Positions 757 to 17,578 of a DNA stretch of 30,484 bases are shown here, one piece after another. Location of the stretch: IMG/VR virus record IMGVR_UViG_3300035698_010104, positions 1 through 30,484 of that record. One strand, 5' to 3'. Both the position numbers and the translations under genes were made by a program. The DNA comes from a virus. Every line of letters starts with the position of its first letter. Position 1 is the first letter of the stretch. Below the pieces are notes generated by a model. It was not told the origin of the DNA. It was given only the letters and a program-made list of their open reading frames with translations, and made no database searches.

Positions 757-1431
757 TTATGGTTGTGCTATTATTTCTACAACTTCTTTCTTTTTCTTTT
801 TTTCATAAACATCTTTTAAGAAGGTGTTGCCTACAAAGTCGTAGATTATTTCACAATCTTTAATTTTCTTTTTAGCATAATCTCTTACAAAGTTTGATAT
901 AAGTCCTCCGATAACTGCACAATTAAAACAGATTGACCTTGCTGTACATGGGTCGTGTTCTACTTTGTCTGGTGGAGCAGTTGTTTTTAAATAGTTTTTA
1001 GATTTGGAACAATAGATTTCTAATTGTAGTCCACCCATTCTTCCATCTATAATATATATATCTCTATTTTTATATATCTCACCAAGCCTTATTCTTTCTT
1101 CCATAGAATCTAGGGCTATAATAACAAGTCCTTTCTTTATATGTTCTTCTACATCATTATTAGCAGTTTTAATTTCTACTCCTGTTTGTTCTTTAACGTT
1201 ATCTCTAAGAGCTTCTACTTTGGGTTTACCAAGTTGTTCCTCTTTAAAGAATTGAGATGCTACATTATGATTCTCCACGACGTCATCATCGTAAACAATT
1301 ATATTTTTACATCCCATTTTAGCTAACAGTAAGGTTGTCCAACTTCCTATTCCACCACCTCCTATAACGTGGATATTAAAGTTGACCTCTGCAGGCTTAA
1401 TGATATCTATTTGTCTATCGTGTCTTTTCAT
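757..1431 (-). CDS. ThiF/E1-like ubiquitin-activating enzyme
   Basis: 224 aa with a Rossmann fold of the E1/ThiF/MoeB superfamily. The nucleotide-binding loop is HVIGGGGIGSWTTLLLAKMG at residues 21-40. It is followed by IIVYDDDVVENHNVASQFF (about 44-62), whose acidic pair (D48, D50) corresponds to the DxD that contacts ATP/Mg, and by LGKPKVEAL (68-76), where the family has its conserved Lys. IIALDSMEER (104-113) matches the usual ALD(N) segment. Near the C-terminus DPCTARSICFNC supplies Cys162, Cys168 and Cys171, candidates for the thioester-forming or zinc-binding cysteines. Known family role: adenylate the C-terminal glycine of a beta-grasp protein and form a thioester. Context with JAMM, E2-like and ubiquitin-like genes supports conjugation over cofactor sulfur transfer. 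Length is close to minimal ThiF (about 240 aa), with no extra E1 domains. Confidence 0.88.
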   Translation of the reverse strand: MKRHDRQIDIIKPAEVNFNIHVIGGGGIGSWTTLLLAKMGCKNIIVYDDDVVENHNVASQFFKEEQLGKPKVEALRDNVKEQTGVEIKTANNDVEEHIKKGLVIIALDSMEERIRLGEIYKNRDIYIIDGRMGGLQLEIYCSKSKNYLKTTAPPDKVEHDPCTARSICFNCAVIGGLISNFVRDYAKKKIKDCEIIYDFVGNTFLKDVYEKKKKKEVVEIIAQP

Positions 1432-1441
1432 TTGTTTAATT

Positions 1442-1642
1442 TTAAATTATTGATAAAGTTTTCACCTTCTTTTTTTGTTTTAAATCTTCTTTGTTAAAAT
1501 TCCTATTTATTTTACATTTGTAACATTGACAATGCTCAAAACAATAATCATTTTTTAATCTCCATATCTTATTTTCTAACTCGTGTAATTCTTTGTATAT
1601 TGGTAATCCTTCACCATGTTTAATTTTTGTTTTTCTTTTCAT
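1442..1642 (-). CDS. Cys-rich mini-protein between E1 and JAMM genes
   Basis: 66 aa and strongly basic. The central motif C-FEH-C-Q-C-YK-C (residues about 34-43) could bind zinc together with the nearby His. It is preceded by an amphipathic helix (YKELHELENKIWRLKND). No family is recognised. Its place between the adenylating enzyme and the JAMM peptidase, 10 bases from the former, suggests it belongs to the conjugation cluster, for example as an adaptor or minimal E3-like factor. That is inference only, because four cysteines are too few for a RING finger. The start follows leader motif copy 2. Confidence 0.6.
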   Translation of the reverse strand: MKRKTKIKHGEGLPIYKELHELENKIWRLKNDYCFEHCQCYKCKINRNFNKEDLKQKKKVKTLSII

Positions 1643-1646
1643 ATGT

Positions 1647-1665
1647 TTGTGTCTTTAGTGGATTA
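1647..1665 (-). promoter_or_regulatory. Leader motif copy 2
   Basis: Sense TAATCCACTAAAGACACAA, between the stop of the JAMM gene (1667) and the ATG at 1642. Confidence 0.6.
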
Positions 1666-1666
1666 A

Positions 1667-2788
1667 TTATATTGCTAGTCCTTTATTTATTTCCTTTCCA
1701 AATTCTTCTGCATCTATTTCATCTTCTTTTGCTATTCTTTTATTTTCTTTTATTATTGCATCCATTAGTTCTTCGGGAGGAATAATTCCCTGACAATGTG
1801 GGCAAACTGGATGTGCATCATCTTCTATTTGGTAATAATCTAAATCTATTTCACTATCACAGAATGGACATTTTATTATTTCATATCTATCTTCTTCATA
1901 TTCATCATCTTTGTCAGCATTTATTGTACCTATTCCAGTTGTCATAACATCAAGTTCTCTTTCATAGTTTAATTGTTCTTCAAAATTTATATCTTCTATT
2001 TCTGCATCTGTCTTTGTACCAATATTTCTTGGTTGTGTATAGTTAATGTTTCTTCTACCAAATGAATCGTAGTATTTATAACTTTCATCACGACCATGTC
2101 CACCTTGCCACCATCCTTTATTGAGAATTGGTAGTAGTTTTGGTTTTGATACTTTTTCTTCTACTTCTTTTTCACAAGCACTTTGTAGTTCTTCATCTTC
2201 ATAATACTCATCTTCTATATCTTCTATTTGACATTCTATATCATCTAATACTTTTTCTGTTTCTTCTTTCATTTCTGTTAATCCTTTTGTTCGTTCTTCT
2301 ATCTCTTCTTTCTTTTCATCGTTGTTTATTATTTCTATATCTATTTCATCTTCCTTATAAGATATTGCTGTATCGAATGGTGAATTGTCTGTTGGGAATA
2401 TATCTACCCTTGCTAACATCTTTCCTTTCTTATTTGTTACAAGTGAAACAAGATATGGTTGTTGTCCCATATGAGATTCCATTGTATCAGTGTCCGTAGT
2501 GGACCAAAATACATCCATATCTGCGTGGGAATGCCACCATAGAGTCCACTTGGTTAAGTCCTCTCCCTTTTGGCTAAGCTCGTAAGTAAATTTAGCCATA
2601 GCTTCTTCATCTAATTCTGTTTTTGCAGATGAACAAACTTGTTTAAATATTATTATATCCTCTAATAACATTTCTTTATCCTCATTAAAAGAAACCTTAC
2701 CCATACCAGAGATTTCTCCATCTGTGGCATCTACATAGTATTTGAGTTTCTTCTCTATTTCATGAGGAATGATTAATTTCTTTTTCAT
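1667..2788 (-). CDS. JAMM/JAB metallopeptidase with C-terminal zinc ribbon
   Basis: 373 aa. Residues 1-145 form a JAB/MPN domain with an intact JAMM signature: Glu25 (DGEISGMG), then HSH at 86-88, seven residues, Ser96, two residues, Asp99. These are the catalytic Glu, zinc ligands and Ser of isopeptidases such as Rpn11 and of bacterial Ubl-associated JABs. Residues 147-215 are very acidic and probably helical. A Gly/Tyr-rich linker (about 220-250) follows. A zinc ribbon with CPFC at 307-310 and CPHC at 329-332 precedes a charged C-terminal helix. Expected role: trim the two residues after Gly-Gly of the 75-aa ubiquitin-like protein and/or remove it from targets. The long extension with a zinc ribbon is unusual and may bind substrate. 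Confidence 0.9.
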   Translation of the reverse strand: MKKKLIIPHEIEKKLKYYVDATDGEISGMGKVSFNEDKEMLLEDIIIFKQVCSSAKTELDEEAMAKFTYELSQKGEDLTKWTLWWHSHADMDVFWSTTDTDTMESHMGQQPYLVSLVTNKKGKMLARVDIFPTDNSPFDTAISYKEDEIDIEIINNDEKKEEIEERTKGLTEMKEETEKVLDDIECQIEDIEDEYYEDEELQSACEKEVEEKVSKPKLLPILNKGWWQGGHGRDESYKYYDSFGRRNINYTQPRNIGTKTDAEIEDINFEEQLNYERELDVMTTGIGTINADKDDEYEEDRYEIIKCPFCDSEIDLDYYQIEDDAHPVCPHCQGIIPPEELMDAIIKENKRIAKEDEIDAEEFGKEINKGLAI

Positions 2789-2808
2789 ATTTTAAAATTA
2801 TTTTTAGT

Positions 2809-3948
2809 TTAACCTATTGGTGTTGATGGACCAACTGCATATTCTTCATTTCTTTCTTCACCATCTTCATCTTCATCTTGTGGTTCTGGTGATGGGCTCG
2901 GTGTAGTTCTATTTCCGTCATGTTTTGCTATAATTTCTGATAATTCTTTTGTAAACTTTTTTCCATCCCATGATTCATTTTCTCTCCAGTAATTTCTATC
3001 AAACCACTTGAATGGGTCTCTTGGTCTAATTGTTACTGGTTGAGCACAGTAATAATGTCTTGCGTCTACATATGGTCCATTATAGTTTGGTTTTTCTAAA
3101 AATCCTATCAATGAATATATTATTTGTAATAGCAAATGTTGTTGTCTATATGTTTGTATTTCTTGACCAAACACTGAACCGAGACATACACTACAGTTTC
3201 TATCAACACATGGATGATGGAAGTCACCTTTTTGAAGTTGTCTTTTATAGTTTGCTATTTTTATATTATCATCTAAACTAATTGGAATTAGTATTTTATA
3301 TGCTCCAAGTTCAAATGTTGGTAGGTCTCTATTTTCATCACTGAATGTTAGAGAGTTTGTTGTAATAAGAAGATATCTTTTTTCATCTTTTTCTATAACT
3401 TCTATTTCTTTTACTTTTGGATGTTTACTAAGTTTTTCGTACTGTTTTTCTAATGGAGCTATGCTTGTTGATATTGATGATACTTCGTTCTTTAATTCTG
3501 TAAGGTTCTGTAATTCTTTTGTTAGGTTTGTTTCCCTTTCTGATAAGTCAAACTCTCTTTGTTTGATATCTGATTTCTTACTTTTAATACCTTCTTCTTT
3601 CTTTTTAAGTTCGTTTGGAACTTCAATAGACCTTTTTACATTTGTTTCTTTAAGTAATTTAACAAACTCTCCCTTCCTTTTATCTTTACATTCATAGGTT
3701 TCTAATACTTTGAAATCTCTGTCGTTAAGATAATAATAGGTTGGTTTGTTCAAGCATGTTTCTAATAGATGAGTAAATTGGTATTCTTTTTCAAAATCAA
3801 TACCATATCTTTTACCAATCTTTTCAATTACAACACCAGTCAATCCTTCTTCGGGAATCTCGACTTCATTCCCGTCATGGTCTTCTGGTTTAAAGTTTTT
3901 GTTTGTTTGAATTTTGTCTCCTAAGAAGACTTCTTTCTTTTTTTGCAT
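2809..3948 (-). CDS. E2-like conjugating protein with fused N-terminal domain and coiled coil
   Basis: 379 aa with four parts. Residues 1-85 (VFLGDKIQTNKNFKP ... YYYLNDRDFKVLE) are paralogous to the whole 89-aa protein encoded next door at 3977-4246. Residues about 110-175 are a charged coiled coil. Residues about 180-295 resemble a UBC/E2 core: a strand LPTFELGAYKILIPISLDD, then HHPCVDRNCSVCLG (244-257), equivalent to the E2 HPN...ICL motif with Cys255 as candidate catalytic residue, then a helix LLLQIIYSLIGFLEKPNYNGPY that matches the E2 helix followed by P-N-x-x-x-P. The C-terminus (about 345-379) is an acidic Pro/Ser-rich tail. The assignment rests on motif order and operon context; overall identity to known E2s is low. 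Start follows leader motif copy 3. Confidence 0.75.
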   Translation of the reverse strand: MQKKKEVFLGDKIQTNKNFKPEDHDGNEVEIPEEGLTGVVIEKIGKRYGIDFEKEYQFTHLLETCLNKPTYYYLNDRDFKVLETYECKDKRKGEFVKLLKETNVKRSIEVPNELKKKEEGIKSKKSDIKQREFDLSERETNLTKELQNLTELKNEVSSISTSIAPLEKQYEKLSKHPKVKEIEVIEKDEKRYLLITTNSLTFSDENRDLPTFELGAYKILIPISLDDNIKIANYKRQLQKGDFHHPCVDRNCSVCLGSVFGQEIQTYRQQHLLLQIIYSLIGFLEKPNYNGPYVDARHYYCAQPVTIRPRDPFKWFDRNYWRENESWDGKKFTKELSEIIAKHDGNRTTPSPSPEPQDEDEDGEERNEEYAVGPSTPIG

Positions 3949-3953
3949 ATTGT

Positions 3954-3972
3954 TTGCGTCTTATGTGGATTA
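3954..3972 (-). promoter_or_regulatory. Leader motif copy 3
   Basis: Sense TAATCCACATAAGACGCAA, six bases before the ATG of the larger E2-like gene (3948) and after the stop of the gene at 3977. Confidence 0.6.
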
Positions 3973-3976
3973 TTAT

Positions 3977-4246
3977 TTAGTAATCGTTTTCGATTTCAAA
4001 CTCATCTTTACTTAAGAAATAACCACACTTGTGTGATAGTAATCCGTCTAGTTGATTTGCCCAACTCAACTTACCAAATCTGATACCATACTTACCATCC
4101 TTCTTTCTTTTTGTTACAACCATTCCTCTAAAGGCTCCGATAGTGGTTATCTTATCTCCCTTTTCGTTTAATGGTTTAAACTTGTTGTTTGTTGAAATCA
4201 TGTCACCTATAAAGACTCTATCTTTATTTTTTTTAGCGTTTTTCAT
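3977..4246 (-). CDS. Stand-alone E2-associated barrel domain, 89 aa
   Basis: Paralogue of residues 1-85 of the larger E2-like protein: RVFIGDMISTNNKFKP here aligns with EVFLGDKIQTNKNFKP there. Both continue with a Gly-x-V-V strand, KYGI(R/D)F and a terminal Y-F/Y-L-x-x-D-x-F-x-(I/V). It is probably a small all-beta domain (inference). Its ATG overlaps the TAA of the second E2-like gene (4243-4246, ATGA-type arrangement on the minus strand), so the two products are likely made together. They probably act together, reproducing as two polypeptides what the larger E2-like protein has as a fusion. Confidence 0.75.
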   Translation of the reverse strand: MKNAKKNKDRVFIGDMISTNNKFKPLNEKGDKITTIGAFRGMVVTKRKKDGKYGIRFGKLSWANQLDGLLSHKCGYFLSKDEFEIENDY

Positions 4247-4683
4247 AATTTGTTTCTATTTAATATTAAACTTGTTATTGTTCTATATGGAGTGCTATAG
4301 TCTGGTTCTTCTAACCAGTTTATGATTAAGTATATTATTTCTTTTGGTCTTTTATATTTCTTTAATTCTGCTAACATTATTTGAATATTTGGACCCCAAC
4401 AAATACTTTTACCATTATGAATACATGGATGAGCTATATCATAATCAAGATTATAAATTTCTGTCATACCAGATATTGTCATTGGAATATTTATTCTAAA
4501 TCTTCCAAGTAAATACTTTTTTCTACTAAATAGACGTTTCCTTCTAGAGTTTCCTTTATAATAAAGTTTCTTTGTTGTTACTATTATTTCTTCAAACTTA
4601 TCTTCACCTCGAATTCTTTCTTTAACTTCTATGCTTTCTATTTTGTCTTTATTTAATTTGTCTTTTTCTAAATATTTATACAT
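4243..4683 (-). CDS. Second E2-like conjugating protein, 146 aa
   Basis: A compact E2-like domain. A central strand pair YLLGRFRINIPM is followed by IAHPCIHNGKSICWGPN, which resembles the E2 HPN-(x)n-G-x-ICL active-site segment; the Cys of ICW (residue 95) is the candidate catalytic Cys. Next come a helix and IINWLEEPDYSTPY, matching the E2 crossover helix followed by P-x-x-x-x-P. It shares this order with the larger E2-like protein. The frame is open 20 codons further upstream, but only with a non-ATG start, and that part would encode a strong hairpin. I therefore start at the first ATG (4683). Confidence 0.75.
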   Translation of the reverse strand: MYKYLEKDKLNKDKIESIEVKERIRGEDKFEEIIVTTKKLYYKGNSRRKRLFSRKKYLLGRFRINIPMTISGMTEIYNLDYDIAHPCIHNGKSICWGPNIQIMLAELKKYKRPKEIIYLIINWLEEPDYSTPYRTITSLILNRNKL

Positions 4684-4703
4684 AAAATTATTAGGGGGGG
4701 TTA

Positions 4704-4727
4704 GAGCCTCTCCATAAAGAGAGGCTC
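4704..4727 (-). terminator. Strong hairpin between Ubl and E2-like genes
   Basis: Perfect 9-bp stem GAGCCTCTC/GAGAGGCTC with a 6-nt loop, 30 bases downstream of the Ubl stop codon. On the minus strand it is followed by TAACCCCCCC and not by a U tract. A canonical intrinsic terminator is therefore not shown. mRNA stabilisation, partial termination or processing that uncouples Ubl from E2 levels is equally possible. Confidence 0.6.
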
Positions 4728-4757
4728 CTTGAATACATACCAAGATCTCGATATATA

Positions 4758-4985
4758 TTATTTTACTCCACCCTCTTTTTTACCAACAATTTGAATCTGA
4801 TCACCATCGTCGATGATGCTGTCCAATCCTGCCTTTTCTCCTGCTACCCAAACAGTCTCGTTGTCACTTAAATCAGTGATGCCTACTGACTCTAGAACTT
4901 CTTCTAGTGTAGCACCCTCATCAAGGTGAGCTGTTTGTGGTTCAAGACCCATTCTGGTGATTGTTGCTGTTAAACCATTTCTCAT
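4758..4985 (-). CDS. Ubiquitin-like beta-grasp protein ending GG-VK
   Basis: 75 aa, the usual size of ubiquitin or ThiS/MoaD. Visible elements: strand GLTATITRMG, strand PQTAHLDEG, helix TLEEVLESVG, strand TVWVAGEKA, then SIIDDGDQIQIVGKKEGGVK, where DGDQIQIV is the typical last strand of ThiS/MoaD/Ubl proteins. The di-glycine (Gly72-Gly73) is followed by Val-Lys, so maturation by the nearby JAMM peptidase would be needed before activation by the E1-like enzyme. Base composition is clearly richer in GC than the adjacent E2-like genes, which suggests selection for high expression or a separate origin. It is the first conjugation-cluster gene to be transcribed. Confidence 0.85.
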   Translation of the reverse strand: MRNGLTATITRMGLEPQTAHLDEGATLEEVLESVGITDLSDNETVWVAGEKAGLDSIIDDGDQIQIVGKKEGGVK

Positions 4986-6032: not shown

Positions 6033-6440
6033 TTAAAAATTACCATAGCCAACTTGTAGACAGGTTAATCCCTCTTCTCTCCACATTTTGACTACTTGGT
6101 CTCTATCGTCTAATACGAATAAGATTCTAAACTTCTTTTTAATTTTGTCTAAAAATCTTTTCTTAATAATAGTATCTTTTTCGTTGTTTCCTTTTTCTCT
6201 TATAAAAAGAAAATCACAATCTATATCATTTTTATCTAACCATTTTGTTGTTTCTTCTTCGCATGAGCCATCTCTTCCAGAGACAACTATAATAATATAT
6301 CCTAATTGGCTCATTGAATTTACTAGAGTTTTGATTGGTTCGTTTACTTTATCTTTACTAACCTTACTCCAATCGTATGGACTTCTTCCTTGCATTTTGG
6401 CAAGTGTTCCGTCTATGTCTACAATTATTGCTTCTTTCAT
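6033..6440 (-). CDS. HAD-family 3'-phosphatase (T4 Pnk phosphatase-domain type)
   Basis: 135 aa. Motif I is DIDGTLAKMQGRSPYDWSKV (residues 8-27), with both HAD aspartates (DxDGT) and the RSPYDW insert typical of the phosphatase half of T4 polynucleotide kinase. Motif II is VVSGRDG. The segment TTKWLDKNDIDCDFLFIRE and a Lys precede motif III/IV VLDDRDQVVKMWREEGLTCLQV. There is no kinase domain or P-loop, so only the phosphatase module is present. Likely reaction: removal of 3' phosphate or 2',3'-cyclic phosphate from nucleic acid ends, as in repair of cleaved RNA or DNA. Length fits the domain alone. Confidence 0.88.
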   Translation of the reverse strand: MKEAIIVDIDGTLAKMQGRSPYDWSKVSKDKVNEPIKTLVNSMSQLGYIIIVVSGRDGSCEEETTKWLDKNDIDCDFLFIREKGNNEKDTIIKKRFLDKIKKKFRILFVLDDRDQVVKMWREEGLTCLQVGYGNF

Positions 6441-12224: not shown

Positions 12225-12356
12225 ATGCCATTTACAAAAATATTATTTGGTAAAAATAAGGGAAAATATAAGAGTCCTTCTGGCAAGGTATTTACTTCTA
12301 AACAAGTAAAATTATACTATGTTAAGGATGGTTTCCTTAAAAAGAAAAAAGAATGA
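12225..12356 (+). CDS. Basic mini-protein, 43 aa
   Basis: MPFTKILFGKNKGKYKSPSG followed by KVFTSKQVKLYYVKDGFLKK. The SPSGKxFTxKQVxLYY pattern suggests a conserved small fold. The frame is open further upstream, but the ATG at 12225 follows the neighbour's stop as TAATATG. The stop overlaps the large terminase start (ATGA at 12353). Confidence 0.65.
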   Translation: MPFTKILFGKNKGKYKSPSGKVFTSKQVKLYYVKDGFLKKKKE

Positions 12357-13051
12357 AGGATGTAAAATATTTACAAAAGCTAAATAAATCAGTGGACCTA
12401 CAAGATTTAGAGTGGAGTAAGTGTTATAATGATCCTTATTACTGGCTTACGAATTGGGCATTTACACTAGATGTACATGACCAAGAAAAACCAATTAAAC
12501 CATTTCCTGAAAAGGAATATATACGAATCATTGTAGACGAATGGGTTGATTACCCGCTATTAATGATAGCAAAGAGTCGTCAAATGATGGTATCTTGGTT
12601 ATTTACCGCACTTTATTTGTGGGATACACAATTTCATGAAGGAAGATTAACCTTCTTTCAATCCAAAAAGTCAGACGATGCTAACGATTTAATAAGACGA
12701 GCAAAGACTATTTGGGACAATGAACCAAAGTTTCTTAAAAGGTATTTTAGTGATGGAAGATTCTATGAACTAAAATGCAATCCTCAACATAATGGTCAAC
12801 ATGTATATGGGTTAATGACTTTCCCAGACATACATGCAGAGATCAGAGGAATTCCTGAGGGAGGAGATATAATTAGAATGCATACTGCATCTGGGATATT
12901 CTCAGACGAGGTAGGCTTCCAACCAGAGGCTAAAGCTGCATTTACTGCTGCTAAACCTACAATATCTTCTATGGGAAGATACACTGCTGTTAGCACGGCC
13001 GAGGACTCGACCTGGTTCGAAAATATGGTGTTCGACCGTATCGAAATTTAG
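12353..13051 (+). CDS. terL: Terminase large subunit, N-terminal ATPase part
   Basis: 232 aa covering the packaging ATPase only. DPYYWLTNWAFTLDVHDQ and the Q-motif-like region lead to LLMIAKSRQMMVSWLFTALY (about 73-92), the R-x-x-x-x-S/T-W Walker A variant of large terminases. A Walker B-like IFSDEVGFQPEA (about 181-192) has the acidic pair, and motif III is TAVSTAEDSTWFENM. It ends with TAG where family members continue into a linker and the nuclease domain. That domain is encoded separately at 13449. The two parts must associate, or be joined, for packaging. It overlaps the preceding gene by 4 bases. Confidence 0.88.
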   Translation: MKDVKYLQKLNKSVDLQDLEWSKCYNDPYYWLTNWAFTLDVHDQEKPIKPFPEKEYIRIIVDEWVDYPLLMIAKSRQMMVSWLFTALYLWDTQFHEGRLTFFQSKKSDDANDLIRRAKTIWDNEPKFLKRYFSDGRFYELKCNPQHNGQHVYGLMTFPDIHAEIRGIPEGGDIIRMHTASGIFSDEVGFQPEAKAAFTAAKPTISSMGRYTAVSTAEDSTWFENMVFDRIEI

Positions 13052-13448: not shown

Positions 13449-14438
13449 ATGTATCTTGATATCAATCAACCAGAAGTAATTAAAGGATTAAAGATTTGGA
13501 AGAATCCAAAGAACAGATTTAATATAGTGATGCTTCACTATACAACTGATCCAGATAAAGATCCAGAACTAAAAGGAAAGGATTGGTATGAGAATGAAAG
13601 GAGAGGTGTTCCTAAAGCCGATTGGAAAAAGGAATACGAGATTGATTTTACCACAAAGTCTGGTAAACTCATTTACGGCACAGAGTTTTGCGACTTTGAT
13701 CCAAAAATACATCTTATAAACTCATTTGAGTTGGGGAACAAAATTGAATACATACTAGGATTAGATTTTGGACAAAGAAATCCAACATGTGCTTTAGTAG
13801 GTGCATGGACAACGGATAACGTACTTTACATAATCGATGAATATTACAAACCAGCATTACCATCTGTTTCTTCCAGAGAAATATTCAAACAGTTTGACTA
13901 TTTAATAGGAGACACAGAAAGTAAGTCATTTTCTAAAAAAAGAACATTGGCTGATAATGCTTTTCAAATAAAAATCATTGATCCAACAACTAAATCTAAA
14001 AACAGATCTAAAGTTCGTGATGGAGAAGAAATACCTTACTCCATTGTAGAAGACTTTTACGATAATGGTTTAGATTTTGAACTTGGTATAAATGATGTTG
14101 GTGCTGGTATTACGAGGGTTAGGGAATATTTTCAGTTGGATGAAAATGATAAGTCTCATCTTTATATTTTTAAAGATAAGTGTCCTTATCTAGCGTGGGA
14201 AGTTCAAAGATATAAGTATAGGGAACTTACAGAGATTCAAGATAGAACAAAGAATGAATCTGAGGAACCTATAAAGAAAGATGATCACGCATGTGACTGT
14301 CTAAGATATCTTTTAATGACTAGACCACAACATCCATCTATTGCTCCCAAACCTAAAACTAAAATTGAAAAAGATATAGAAAATTTATTAAAACCCAAGA
14401 TCATTGCTCATGACTTTGATAATGATTCAGGGCTATAA
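13449..14438 (+). CDS. terL: Terminase large subunit, C-terminal nuclease part
   Basis: 329 aa. EVIKGLKIWKNPKNRFNIVM and LHYTTDPDKDPE correspond to the linker of TerL proteins, and WKKEYEIDF to the end of the ATPase half. The RNase H-like nuclease follows: ILGLDFGQRNPTCALVGAW (first catalytic Asp), a central VEDFYDNGLDFELG region, and KKDDHACDCLRYLLMTRP (final D-x-x-D-x-L-R-Y motif). It cuts concatemers during packaging. It begins in the TAATATG context after the metallopeptidase gene. It is not in frame with the ATPase part (offset +1), so simple readthrough cannot join them. Confidence 0.88.
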   Translation: MYLDINQPEVIKGLKIWKNPKNRFNIVMLHYTTDPDKDPELKGKDWYENERRGVPKADWKKEYEIDFTTKSGKLIYGTEFCDFDPKIHLINSFELGNKIEYILGLDFGQRNPTCALVGAWTTDNVLYIIDEYYKPALPSVSSREIFKQFDYLIGDTESKSFSKKRTLADNAFQIKIIDPTTKSKNRSKVRDGEEIPYSIVEDFYDNGLDFELGINDVGAGITRVREYFQLDENDKSHLYIFKDKCPYLAWEVQRYKYRELTEIQDRTKNESEEPIKKDDHACDCLRYLLMTRPQHPSIAPKPKTKIEKDIENLLKPKIIAHDFDNDSGL

Positions 14439-14664: not shown

Positions 14665-14949
14665 ATGAAAATAGAACCCGCAAAAGATCTATTACTAATT
14701 AAAAAACACGAGAAGACGCAATTAAAAGCTGATATAGTATTAGAAGAAGATGATGATGATAAGAAGTTAATCACTGGAGAGATTATTAGCCTGGGGTCAA
14801 ACCTTGTTGGTAATCCAAACTACTCCGATGGTGATACTGTTATCTTTGGACCATATGCTGTTATGAAGTTGGTTGTTAGTGGAGAAATTTATCACTTTCT
14901 TCATGTAGATGATATTGTTGGAACGTGTTCATATAAGGAGGATGTCTAA
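14665..14949 (+). CDS. groES: GroES-like co-chaperonin
   Basis: 94 aa, like host GroES (about 97). MKIEPAKDLLLIKKHEKT aligns with the GroES start M-x-I-x-P-x-x-D-x-x-x-I-x-K. The mobile loop ends with ADIVLEEDDDD where host proteins have GGIVL. TGEIISLGSNL matches R/T-G-E-V-x-x-x-G, and YSDGDTVIFGPYAVMKL matches V-G-D-x-V-x-F-x-x-Y. HVDDIVGT replaces the usual E-x-D-I-L-A. It should cap the phage GroEL at 16007, or the host one, as T4 gp31 does. Altered mobile-loop residues may tune partner choice (inference). Confidence 0.85.
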   Translation: MKIEPAKDLLLIKKHEKTQLKADIVLEEDDDDKKLITGEIISLGSNLVGNPNYSDGDTVIFGPYAVMKLVVSGEIYHFLHVDDIVGTCSYKEDV

Positions 14950-15526
14950 AGTAAATATAGTTTGTAAAACTTGTAGTAAGATTTTTAAAGATTATTTATC
15001 AAATAATAGAAAATTTTGTTCTAGAAAATGTTTTGAGTTTAATGAGAATAAGAATAAATCTGTTGCAAAAAAGAATAAAATAAATTCTATTGGTAATAAA
15101 AATTCTTTAGGAAAGAAACATACTAAAGAAACTAAGAAAAAAATTAGAGAGAAAGCAAAAGAAAGAATGAGAAATCCTATAAATAGAATGAAGTGTGCCA
15201 GATATGGAAAAGAAGCTTCTAATTGGTGTGGTGGAAAATCTTTTGAAAAATATCCTCAAGAATGGAAAGATACATTAAGAGATGCTATTAGACAAAAAAA
15301 CAATTATATTTGTCAAGAATGTGGTATTCATCAAGATGAATTAGGCACATTTATTGTACATAATGTAATTGTACAAAAAAAATTAGATGTTCATCATATA
15401 GATTATAATAAACATAATTGCGATCCAGAAAATTTAATAAGTCTTTGTAAAAGTTGTCATTCAAAAACAAACTTTAATAGAACTTATTGGTCTAAGTATT
15501 TCTCTGAATGTGATTACAAAGAATAA
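14942..15526 (+). CDS. HNH homing-type endonuclease
   Basis: 194 aa from the ATG at 14942. N-terminal zinc knuckle CKTCSKIFKDYLSNNRKFCS with CSRKC. A middle region KNSLGKKHTKETKKKIREKA resembles NUMOD3-type DNA-binding repeats. The C-terminal HNH domain has CQECG ... LDVHHIDYNKHNCDPENLIS ... LCKSCH, with His-His, Asn and the four zinc cysteines. A stand-alone mobile endonuclease; it sits between groES and groEL and overlaps groES by 8 bases. The AAGGAGG before the ATG is too close to act as a normal Shine-Dalgarno; an in-frame ATG at 14909 is the alternative start. Confidence 0.82.
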   Translation: MSKVNIVCKTCSKIFKDYLSNNRKFCSRKCFEFNENKNKSVAKKNKINSIGNKNSLGKKHTKETKKKIREKAKERMRNPINRMKCARYGKEASNWCGGKSFEKYPQEWKDTLRDAIRQKNNYICQECGIHQDELGTFIVHNVIVQKKLDVHHIDYNKHNCDPENLISLCKSCHSKTNFNRTYWSKYFSECDYKE

Positions 15527-16006: not shown

Positions 16007-17578
16007 ATGTTTAAAGAATTACTTTTCAACGAAGATGCAAGAAAGAAAATAATCAGTGGCGTTAATGTTGTTGCTGATGCTGTTACAAGCACATTGGGTC
16101 CTAAGGGACAGAATGTGATCTTTGAAGAAAGTAGCTACCCCACAATTACTAAAGACGGTGTTACCGTTGCCCAACAAATTTTCTTAAAGGATAAATTTGA
16201 AAACATGGGTGTAATGATTACAAGGGAAGCTGCCGAAAATACTAATAGAGAAGCTGGAGATGGAACAACATCAACAGTCACATTATTGAGAGCAATTGTC
16301 AATGATGGAAATAAGTATATTACTGCAGGAATGAATCCAATTCTTCTTAAAAGAGGAATGGAGGCTGCACTTAAAGATGTCGTAACTGTTCTTGAAAAAC
16401 AATCAAAAGAAATAAAAACATTAAAAGAGAAAGAACAAATAGCTACAATTTCAGCTAATAACGATGTAGACCTCGGCAAAATGATTTCGGGGGTTTTAGA
16501 AAAAGTTGGTAAGGATGGAATTGTAACTGTATCTAATTCTAATTCATTAGAAAATAGTGTTGAATATATTTCTGGAACAAAATTAGATAAAGGATATCAG
16601 TCACACATGTTTATTAATGATAGAAGAAGGTTGACTACAAATATGGAGAATCCTACTGTTATTGTTACAACAGATAGAATTACTTCACCTAATCAATTGC
16701 TTAAATTAATACAGAGTTTATTATCCGCTGGTAAGTTTCAAATAGTTCTGTTTGCACAGGCTATAGAGGGACAAGCATTAGCATTTCTTGTACAAAATCA
16801 TTTACAAGGAAAGTTTACATGTGTACCAGTAGAGATTCCAACGTTTGGAGGTTATCAAAGAGATTTGATTTACGATCTTGCTACATTGACAGAATCAACA
16901 GTTCTTGGTGAAGAAGACGCAAAGAATATTGTAGATGGAACATTTGAGGATTGTGGTACTGCAGAGACTATAATAATTGGTAGAGAAGAGACTGTTATAA
17001 GTGGTGGTAAGGGAAGTATTAAGAAAAGGATTGCTGAAGTAAGAACATTAATAGATGAAGAAAAGGATACCTTTAAAAAGGAGCAATTAAGGAAAAGGTT
17101 AGGTAGACTAACTGGATCTATTGCTAATATTAAGGTAGGAGCTGCTTCAGAAACAGAACAAACAGAAATTAGATATAGATTAGAAGATGCATTAAATTCA
17201 ACAAAATCTGCTACCGAAGAAGGAATAGTTGAAGGTGGTGGAGTTGCTTTATTAAAAGTAAAACAAAAGATAAAAGAACCAGAACTTACACGTGGCAAAG
17301 AGTTTGTTGCTGGATATAATATAGTTGTTAATGCGTTAGATAAACCAATTAAAGATATTTTAGAAAACGCTGGTTTACCATCTGATGCTGTTATTGCTAA
17401 GATTACAGAAAACAATAAAGGATATAACGTTTTAACTGATCAATACGAGGACTTATTTGAGACTGGAGTTGTTGATCCAACAAAGTGCGTTAAAAATGAG
17501 ATTATTAATGCTGTTTCTACAGCGTCTATATTGCTTACATCTAATGTAGCAATAGCTAATAAAGAAGAAGAAAAATAA
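16007..17578 (+). CDS. groEL: GroEL-like chaperonin
   Basis: 523 aa (host GroEL about 545). The equatorial domain is well kept: TSTLGPKGQNVIFEESS, ITKDGVTVAQQI, and NREAGDGTTSTVTLLRAIV with the catalytic Asp of GDGTT; later EEGIVEGGGVALLK and the C-terminal ATP-site Asp region (FETGVVDPTKCVKNEI). The apical domain (about 185-370) is divergent and shorter, for example GYQSHMFINDRRRLTTNMEN in place of GYLSPYF. The Gly-Gly-Met tail is missing (ends NKEEEK). Function: ATP-driven folding, presumably of virion proteins encoded next to it. A divergent substrate-binding domain suggests specialisation for phage clients (inference). Confidence 0.93.
   Translation: MFKELLFNEDARKKIISGVNVVADAVTSTLGPKGQNVIFEESSYPTITKDGVTVAQQIFLKDKFENMGVMITREAAENTNREAGDGTTSTVTLLRAIVNDGNKYITAGMNPILLKRGMEAALKDVVTVLEKQSKEIKTLKEKEQIATISANNDVDLGKMISGVLEKVGKDGIVTVSNSNSLENSVEYISGTKLDKGYQSHMFINDRRRLTTNMENPTVIVTTDRITSPNQLLKLIQSLLSAGKFQIVLFAQAIEGQALAFLVQNHLQGKFTCVPVEIPTFGGYQRDLIYDLATLTESTVLGEEDAKNIVDGTFEDCGTAETIIIGREETVISGGKGSIKKRIAEVRTLIDEEKDTFKKEQLRKRLGRLTGSIANIKVGAASETEQTEIRYRLEDALNSTKSATEEGIVEGGGVALLKVKQKIKEPELTRGKEFVAGYNIVVNALDKPIKDILENAGLPSDAVIAKITENNKGYNVLTDQYEDLFETGVVDPTKCVKNEIINAVSTASILLTSNVAIANKEEEK

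Follow-up and report, generated by a model that had tools for sequence, protein, structure and literature searches.

Full bacterial sets of a ubiquitin-like protein (Ubl), an E1, an E2 and a peptidase are known chiefly as antiphage defences, which raises the question of what such a set would be doing in the genome of a phage. The DNA examined here, hereafter the window, is the whole of IMG/VR virus contig IMGVR_UViG_3300035698_010104 (30,484 bases), and an earlier note had proposed that a complete set of this kind lies on one of its strands. By its profiles and motifs the set is a real phage-encoded one for Ubl conjugation and deconjugation, conjugation itself being what we infer from the anatomy of its parts. 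That it forms a reversible, phage-encoded conjugation pathway seems to us probable, the reactions, targets and purpose being read from the genes. The several strands of evidence (ThiF at 4e-21, N11/Rpn11 at 1.8e-8, SAMP2 at 9e-5 and a gene order recurring in 83 of 93 loci) agree beyond chance.

The gene run and its phage

With a terminase, a portal and a major capsid protein found in a PHROGs scan of the window proteins, the record is, by gene content, a tailed phage. From ~11 kb the plus strand bears the small and large terminase subunits, an HNH endonuclease, a GroEL-like chaperonin, the portal and the major capsid protein, and the same block holds a DNA polymerase exonuclease subunit, an endolysin and a ParB-like protein. 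Judged by capsid and portal, it comes closest, among named phages, to those of Arthrobacter and Microbacterium (about 20-32% identity). The 20 window proteins compared with PHROGs include no integrase and so give no hint of a life as a resident prophage, and a scan of bacterial genomes with the window-type E1 gave a single good match, on an uncultured-bacterium contig, and no host. Two features of the structural block deserve mention in their own right. The matches to the large terminase subunit are split across two open frames (12353-13051 and 13449-14438, plus strand) with the HNH endonuclease (14909-15526, plus strand) nearby, and the split is maybe an intron or insertion; the chaperonin (16007-17578, plus strand; PHROG 5725 at 1e-132) lies within the head genes and could be a capsid-folding aid.

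The Ubl set sits outside this block, amid small unknown ORFs, and upstream of it is a gene for a polynucleotide kinase 3'-phosphatase-like protein (6033-6440, minus strand; phrog_505, 2e-55). Every protein that the earlier note had named was found where it had been placed. The genes are on the minus strand and run Ubl, E2a, a small 89 aa protein, E2b, JAMM, a Cys-rich ORF and E1 (Table 1). The description of the set as complete holds for the Ubl, E1, E2-like and JAMM proteins, all of which are present; no E3 was identified for it.

Table 1. Genes of the Ubl run, in order along the minus strand
Feature	Position	Strand	Basis
Ubl, 75 aa beta-grasp protein, SAMP2/ThiS/Ub-Mut7C-like, end KKEGG-VK	4758..4985	-	Pfam and family profile
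E2a, second E2-like protein; start TTG 4743 or ATG 4683	4243..4743	-	profile homology to E2b
89 aa protein, a separate copy of the KOW/SH3-like domain found at the N-terminus of E2b	3977..4246	-	profile match
E2b, 379 aa, with a KOW-like domain, a coiled coil and a UBC-like domain (about 175-310)	2809..3948	-	profile, AF2 model
JAMM/Rpn11-type isopeptidase, a zinc-ribbon-like segment (CPFC...CPHC) at its C-terminus	1667..2788	-	family profile, motif
66 aa Cys-rich ORF (CFEHCQCYKC) in the JAMM-E1 interval; membership uncertain	1442..1642	-	open frame in run
E1-like ThiF-fold adenylating enzyme, 224 aa; candidate thioester Cys162	757..1431	-	Pfam ThiF

The 89 aa protein is linked by profile to the N-terminus of E2b at 1e-34, has sister copies in two related records (L132 and L133), and corresponds to a region of E2b (residues 1-84) whose model resembles the Spt5 KOW domain (Z 7.5). 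The Cys-rich ORF had no meaningful family match in family profile scans, and in the sister loci the gap between JAMM and E1 has no room for a counterpart. Two strong hairpins followed by CCCCCCC were also seen between the Ubl and E2a genes (4680-4765, minus strand; -28.8 kcal/mol, z -4.7), and these may mark an E2a insertion or a regulatory site.

The Ubl and its enzymes

The Ubl had been noted for a Gly-Gly near its end, and the terminal ...KKEGGVK bears this out. Alone it falls 0.2 bits under the cut-off of Pfam Ub-Mut7C (8.5e-5); five of the eight members of its family match that model, the best at 3.8e-9, and the family profile reaches Pyrococcus SAMP2 (PF1061) at 9e-5, with GG aligned to GG, so that the profiles place a beta-grasp domain in the family. 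The closest solved Ubls in the profile search were SAMP2, TtuB, MoaD and ThiS. Relatives keep the C-terminal Gly with which the domain ends: G72 is present in 8/8 family members and GG in 6/8, more distant Ubls end GGR or GG, and two related ones (L142 and L157) end GN plus one residue, not GG. Beyond the fixed GG the residues vary, from GGVK in the window to GGLL in the sister L133 and GG followed by 36 residues in the sister L134, and this variable tail points to maturation by a peptidase. BilA, too, is matured by its peptidase (PMC11354881).

The assignment of the E1 is the firmest: its identity as a ThiF-type E1, as judged from sequence, is certain. It matches Pfam ThiF at 4.2e-21 (75.6 bits against a cut-off of 28.1), which gives it the adenylation domain, and its profile also matches MccB, UBA5 and Uba1. 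The GxGxxG and DxD motifs that had been reported are present, as GxGGIG and D48-x-D50, together with N56, K71, D108 and C162; D48, D50, N56, K71 and D108 are invariant across 109 distinct phage E1s, and R6 is found in 98 of 99 phage sequences. The candidate for the thioester Cys is Cys162, present in 100 of 106 phage E1s. In the usual N-x-x-R-Q motif the Arg has given way to Ser59 in the window and to Gly in 84/109, and its loss may mean that the grip on the nucleotide has changed.

The HSH-x7-S-x2-D motif ascribed to the peptidase is complete (E25...H86-S-H88-x7-S96-x2-D99), and E25, H86, H88, S96 and D99 are invariant in four JAMM proteins, those of the window and its sisters. The window protein alone scores marginally (PADLOC JAB, 1.4e-3); the profile of the four-protein family reaches archaeal N11 at 1.8e-8 and yeast Rpn11 at 5e-5. 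Zinc-ribbon-like segments, in the JAMM protein of the window and in the E2b of the sisters, could help choose targets.

The two E2-like proteins call for more caution. Their active-site regions read HPCIHNGKSICWG in E2a and HHPCVDRNCSVCLG in E2b (HHPC...VC255LG...NGPY), and the two are homologous by iterated profile (6e-39), E2a being 30% identical to the UBC region of E2b. Against Pfam UQ_con, that region of E2b scored 21.3 bits (2.1e-4) and the gathering score is 27, so we class E2b as E2-like and not as a UQ_con member. A full-length E2b profile was swamped by the coiled coil and was cut to the UBC region; the resulting profile, built from eight sequences and searched against all solved chains in the PDB, gave 30 matches in the list, of which 27 are E2s (two entries named L3A2-1 counted). 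The best was UBE2L3, at E 0.007, with HPcverngsiCl aligned over HPNIDEKGQVCL, and UBE2L6, UBC9 and UBE2D were among the others. H245, P246, C255 and G257 are invariant in nine window-type E2 sequences, the corresponding stretch reads HPNISSDGDICWG in L138 and HPNISNSRFCYG in L135, and some relatives, as in L138, have the canonical HPN...GxIC motif. From these invariant residues and motif forms we predict that the catalytic Cys is the last of each motif, Cys255 in E2b and Cys115 in E2a, which align with the E2 active-site Cys. The key residues proposed earlier, Cys95 and Cys255, are these same two, Cys115 counted from the TTG start being Cys95 counted from the internal ATG at 4683; the Cys of HPC does not align in this way. 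Eukaryotic E2s have Asn where that Cys stands, and in the window HPC thus replaces HPN and the usual Asn is missing.

Structure comparison leans the same way. The AF2 model of E2b has a pLDDT of 76, with the blocks of the UBC region mostly at 76-95, and UBE2S, Pex4, UbcH7, UbcH10 and Rad6 align on it over 122-135 residues with Z 6.0-6.7: UBE2S at Z 6.7 (3.7 A, 122 aligned), where unrelated rows of similar Z match the KOW-like and coiled-coil parts, Pex4 at 6.4 (134 aligned) and UbcH7 at 6.3 (123 aligned), every Z being under 8. Foldseek searches with the models of E2b and of its counterpart in phage crAss001, gp78, gave no match at E under 0.001. Taken together, the weak profile and fold matches are favourable to a UBC fold, which we treat as putative. 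Of the claim of two E2-like proteins the HP...C.G regions and the E2 profile matches stand, the UQ_con score was missed and the fold matches are weak; the fold and profile comparisons that had been proposed as a check gave profile matches for E1 and JAMM, and for E2b the match to UBE2L3 at 0.007 and nothing from Foldseek under 0.001. In two related loci (L136:3517-4545 and L138:3393-4298) the UBC region of the E2-like proteins is followed by numerous CxxC motifs, and this part is perhaps an E3-like zinc domain fused to the E2.

Assembled in order, these parts suggest the following reactions. The JAMM peptidase would trim the Ubl after Gly-Gly, removing the tail VK in the window; the ThiF-type E1 would adenylate the C-terminal Gly and then take the Ubl on Cys162; the Ubl would pass to Cys255 of E2b or Cys115 of E2a, and the E2 would join it to target proteins at an amine group, probably that of a lysine, from which the JAMM protein could later take it off.

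Sister phages and a second, larger branch

The claim that the set belongs to a phage is upheld by the terminase, portal and capsid genes of the window, by the enzyme profiles and motifs, and by sister phages that share it. No match came from scanning viral and genome contigs with a single E1 or E2b sequence, and tblastn with E2a, E2b or the Ubl alone found no phage; relatives were reached via the capsid protein, E1 and JAMM. Three long sister phage records, reached via the capsid protein, carry the set, with E1 52-62%, E2b 32-34% and JAMM 35-45% identical to those of the window, and their gene order is that of the window wherever the record is complete. E2a is in the window and was not found in the sisters L133 and L134, which suggests that it arose by duplication.

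A second branch came from tblastn with the window E1, which matched Flavobacterium phage Fpv1 (31.8%, 2e-22), crAss-like phages and others; the neighbours of these E1s include JAMM, E2-like and Ubl-like genes. A first E1 alignment proved too diverse for scanning. The IMG/VR scan yielded 80 loci, and 93 phage loci entered the comparison; with profiles of the four families, the order Ubl-E2-JAMM-E1 was found in 83 of them, and in the other 10 part of the set is missing within the stretch fetched. This crAss-type branch includes the cultivated Bacteroides phage crAss001 (gp79-gp76) and Fpv1. Its iterated profiles match the window JAMM at 1.5e-42 and E1 at 2e-49, having been seeded without the window, whose rows may enter in later rounds, and 83 of its 89 JAMM proteins have H-x-H-x7-S-x2-D.

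The remaining two families are linked less closely. The crAss-type E2-like proteins (62 sequences) share an invariant SH...C.G...ES..G core, and their profile matches that of the window type weakly (probability 29%, E 6e-4). The best rows for the AF2 model of crAss001 gp78 (pLDDT 86) are mostly UBC/RWD folds, namely UbcH5, FTS, RWD, UFC1 and Atg3, at Z 5.0 or less. The crAss-type Ubl-like proteins had no meaningful Pfam or PDB match, and their profile did not match that of the window-type Ubls; 72 of 74 distinct sequences end in a K-x-SG-like fashion (a loose pattern), mostly with an extension, and from this end and the position of the gene we take them as putative beta-grasp proteins. Near the crAss-type set lie a primase (82 of 83 loci), a PD-(D/E)XK exonuclease (71/83) and a uracil-DNA glycosylase (64/83), a synteny with the replication block seen in this branch, whereas the window set is found among small unknown ORFs.

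Two further observations concern the wider family. The gene directly after E1 in 54 loci, crAss001 gp75 (L007:8339-9151) and its relatives, is without a family match and might be a fifth component of the crAss-type set. A human-gut phage scaffold (L006:3257-6747; MT835544) has a divergent set in adjacent genes: a Ubl-like ORF of 78 aa that lacks GG, a protein of 491 aa, and then JAMM-like and E1 genes.

Known systems and the role of the set

How does the window set compare with systems already described? Bacterial operons with these parts were classified as types 6a-6e, and a Ubl-JAB pair was recognized in lambda tail genes (Iyer et al., 2006; PMC1779556), while BilABCD provides a functional bacterial model (PMC11354881). 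As in BilABCD, the Ubl, E2, JAB/JAMM and E1 of the window are four separate adjacent genes. BilA, however, contains a pair of Ub domains, and BilD combines an adenylation pseudodimer with a Cys domain (PMC11354881), whereas the window set is phage-borne and has a single-domain Ubl of 75 aa and a minimal one-ThiF E1 of 224 aa; membership in BilABCD was rejected on the one-domain Ubl and one-ThiF-domain E1. Type 6d shares a stand-alone Ubl with a conserved C-terminal Gly, an E2-like protein with a conserved Cys, a JAB and an E1 (PMC1779556), but it also has a JAB-N domain and a further helical protein, and the His that usually precedes the Cys is absent from its E2s; in the window the E2s retain HP ahead of the Cys, and their set is carried by a phage. 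The PRTRC plasmid cassette also has a ThiF-family protein on mobile elements, to which the E1 has a weak match, and it was discarded at 32 bits against the 144.75-bit cut-off of NCBIfam PRTRC_ThiF, the other PRTRC models being unmatched. TAPI and TAPK of lambda and T1 are likewise a phage-encoded Ubl and JAB peptidase (PMC1779556), but they lie in tail genes with no E1 or E2 described, and the window set is outside the structural block. The archaeal SAMP2/N11-type systems resemble it in their SAMP2-like Ubl, ThiF-type E1 and N11/Rpn11-like JAMM; the window adds E2-like proteins, all in one phage gene run. Among open-access papers we found no report of a full phage-borne Ubl set; an earlier one may exist elsewhere.

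The earlier note had allowed for the tagging of host or virion proteins and for a counter to host Ubl defences. Among the roles that might be considered, a core phage role is the one we favour, over defence cargo or a stand-alone anti-defence device, because the order of the genes is fixed and because in the larger branch they are syntenic with primase, exonuclease and uracil-DNA glycosylase. Phages can carry defence cargo, and a Bil-like defence borne by the phage might tag structural proteins of competing phages and so exclude superinfection. Such a role would agree with the antiphage function of bacterial Ubl/E1/E2/JAB operons such as BilABCD (PMC11354881), but a single order near primase in 82 of 83 related loci is not that of a variable cargo site, the 20 scanned window proteins include no integrase, and the window E1 scores 46.7 bits where the NCBIfam model for the listed defence E1 (6A-MBL cap2_3) requires 320, so we regard this role as unlikely. 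Nor does a device against host Ubl-based immunity, in which the Ubl would be a decoy and the JAMM protein a deconjugase, fit much better: a full-motif JAMM could strip host Ubl, but neither decoy nor deconjugase needs an E1 and an E2 with a conserved Cys, and the Ubl, E2, JAMM and E1 travel together across phages, all of which makes this reading very unlikely.

Two other alternatives question the chemistry rather than the purpose. The nearest solved Ubls, SAMP2, TtuB, MoaD and ThiS, include some that serve thiolation, and the ThiF-like enzyme might make a Ubl thiocarboxylate used to thiolate tRNA or a cofactor, the E2-like protein being a non-catalytic partner; yet no rhodanese, cysteine desulfurase or tRNA thiolase is among the families found in the window, and it is typical of conjugation that a JAMM adjoins the E1 and that the E2 has an invariant Cys, which leaves little to be said for a sulfur carrier. 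That the E2-like proteins are RWD-like inactive scaffolds, with E1, Ubl and JAMM working in some other way, is a doubtful proposition as well. HPC in place of HPN and the weak E2 scores would be in keeping with it, as would the inactive E2-fold proteins of bacterial 6e operons (PMC1779556), whereas Cys255 and Gly257 are invariant in window-type E2s, an equivalent Cys occurs in 62 crAss-type proteins, and the canonical HPN...GxIC persists in some relatives (L138).

For the core phage role, then, the likeliest purpose is to control proteins where phage DNA is replicated or the host taken over, rather than to help assemble tails. It is tempting to extend this to many tailed phages, crAss-like ones included, which might carry their own Ubl pathway in the replication block and run infection through reversible tagging of phage or host replication proteins, and not as defence or counter-defence cargo; we offer this as a tentative proposal, somewhat short of even odds. 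As such sets lie beside replication genes, in cultivated phages among others, control of infection by Ubl tagging is directly testable, and phage Ubl sets bear on the origin of parts of the eukaryotic ubiquitin system.
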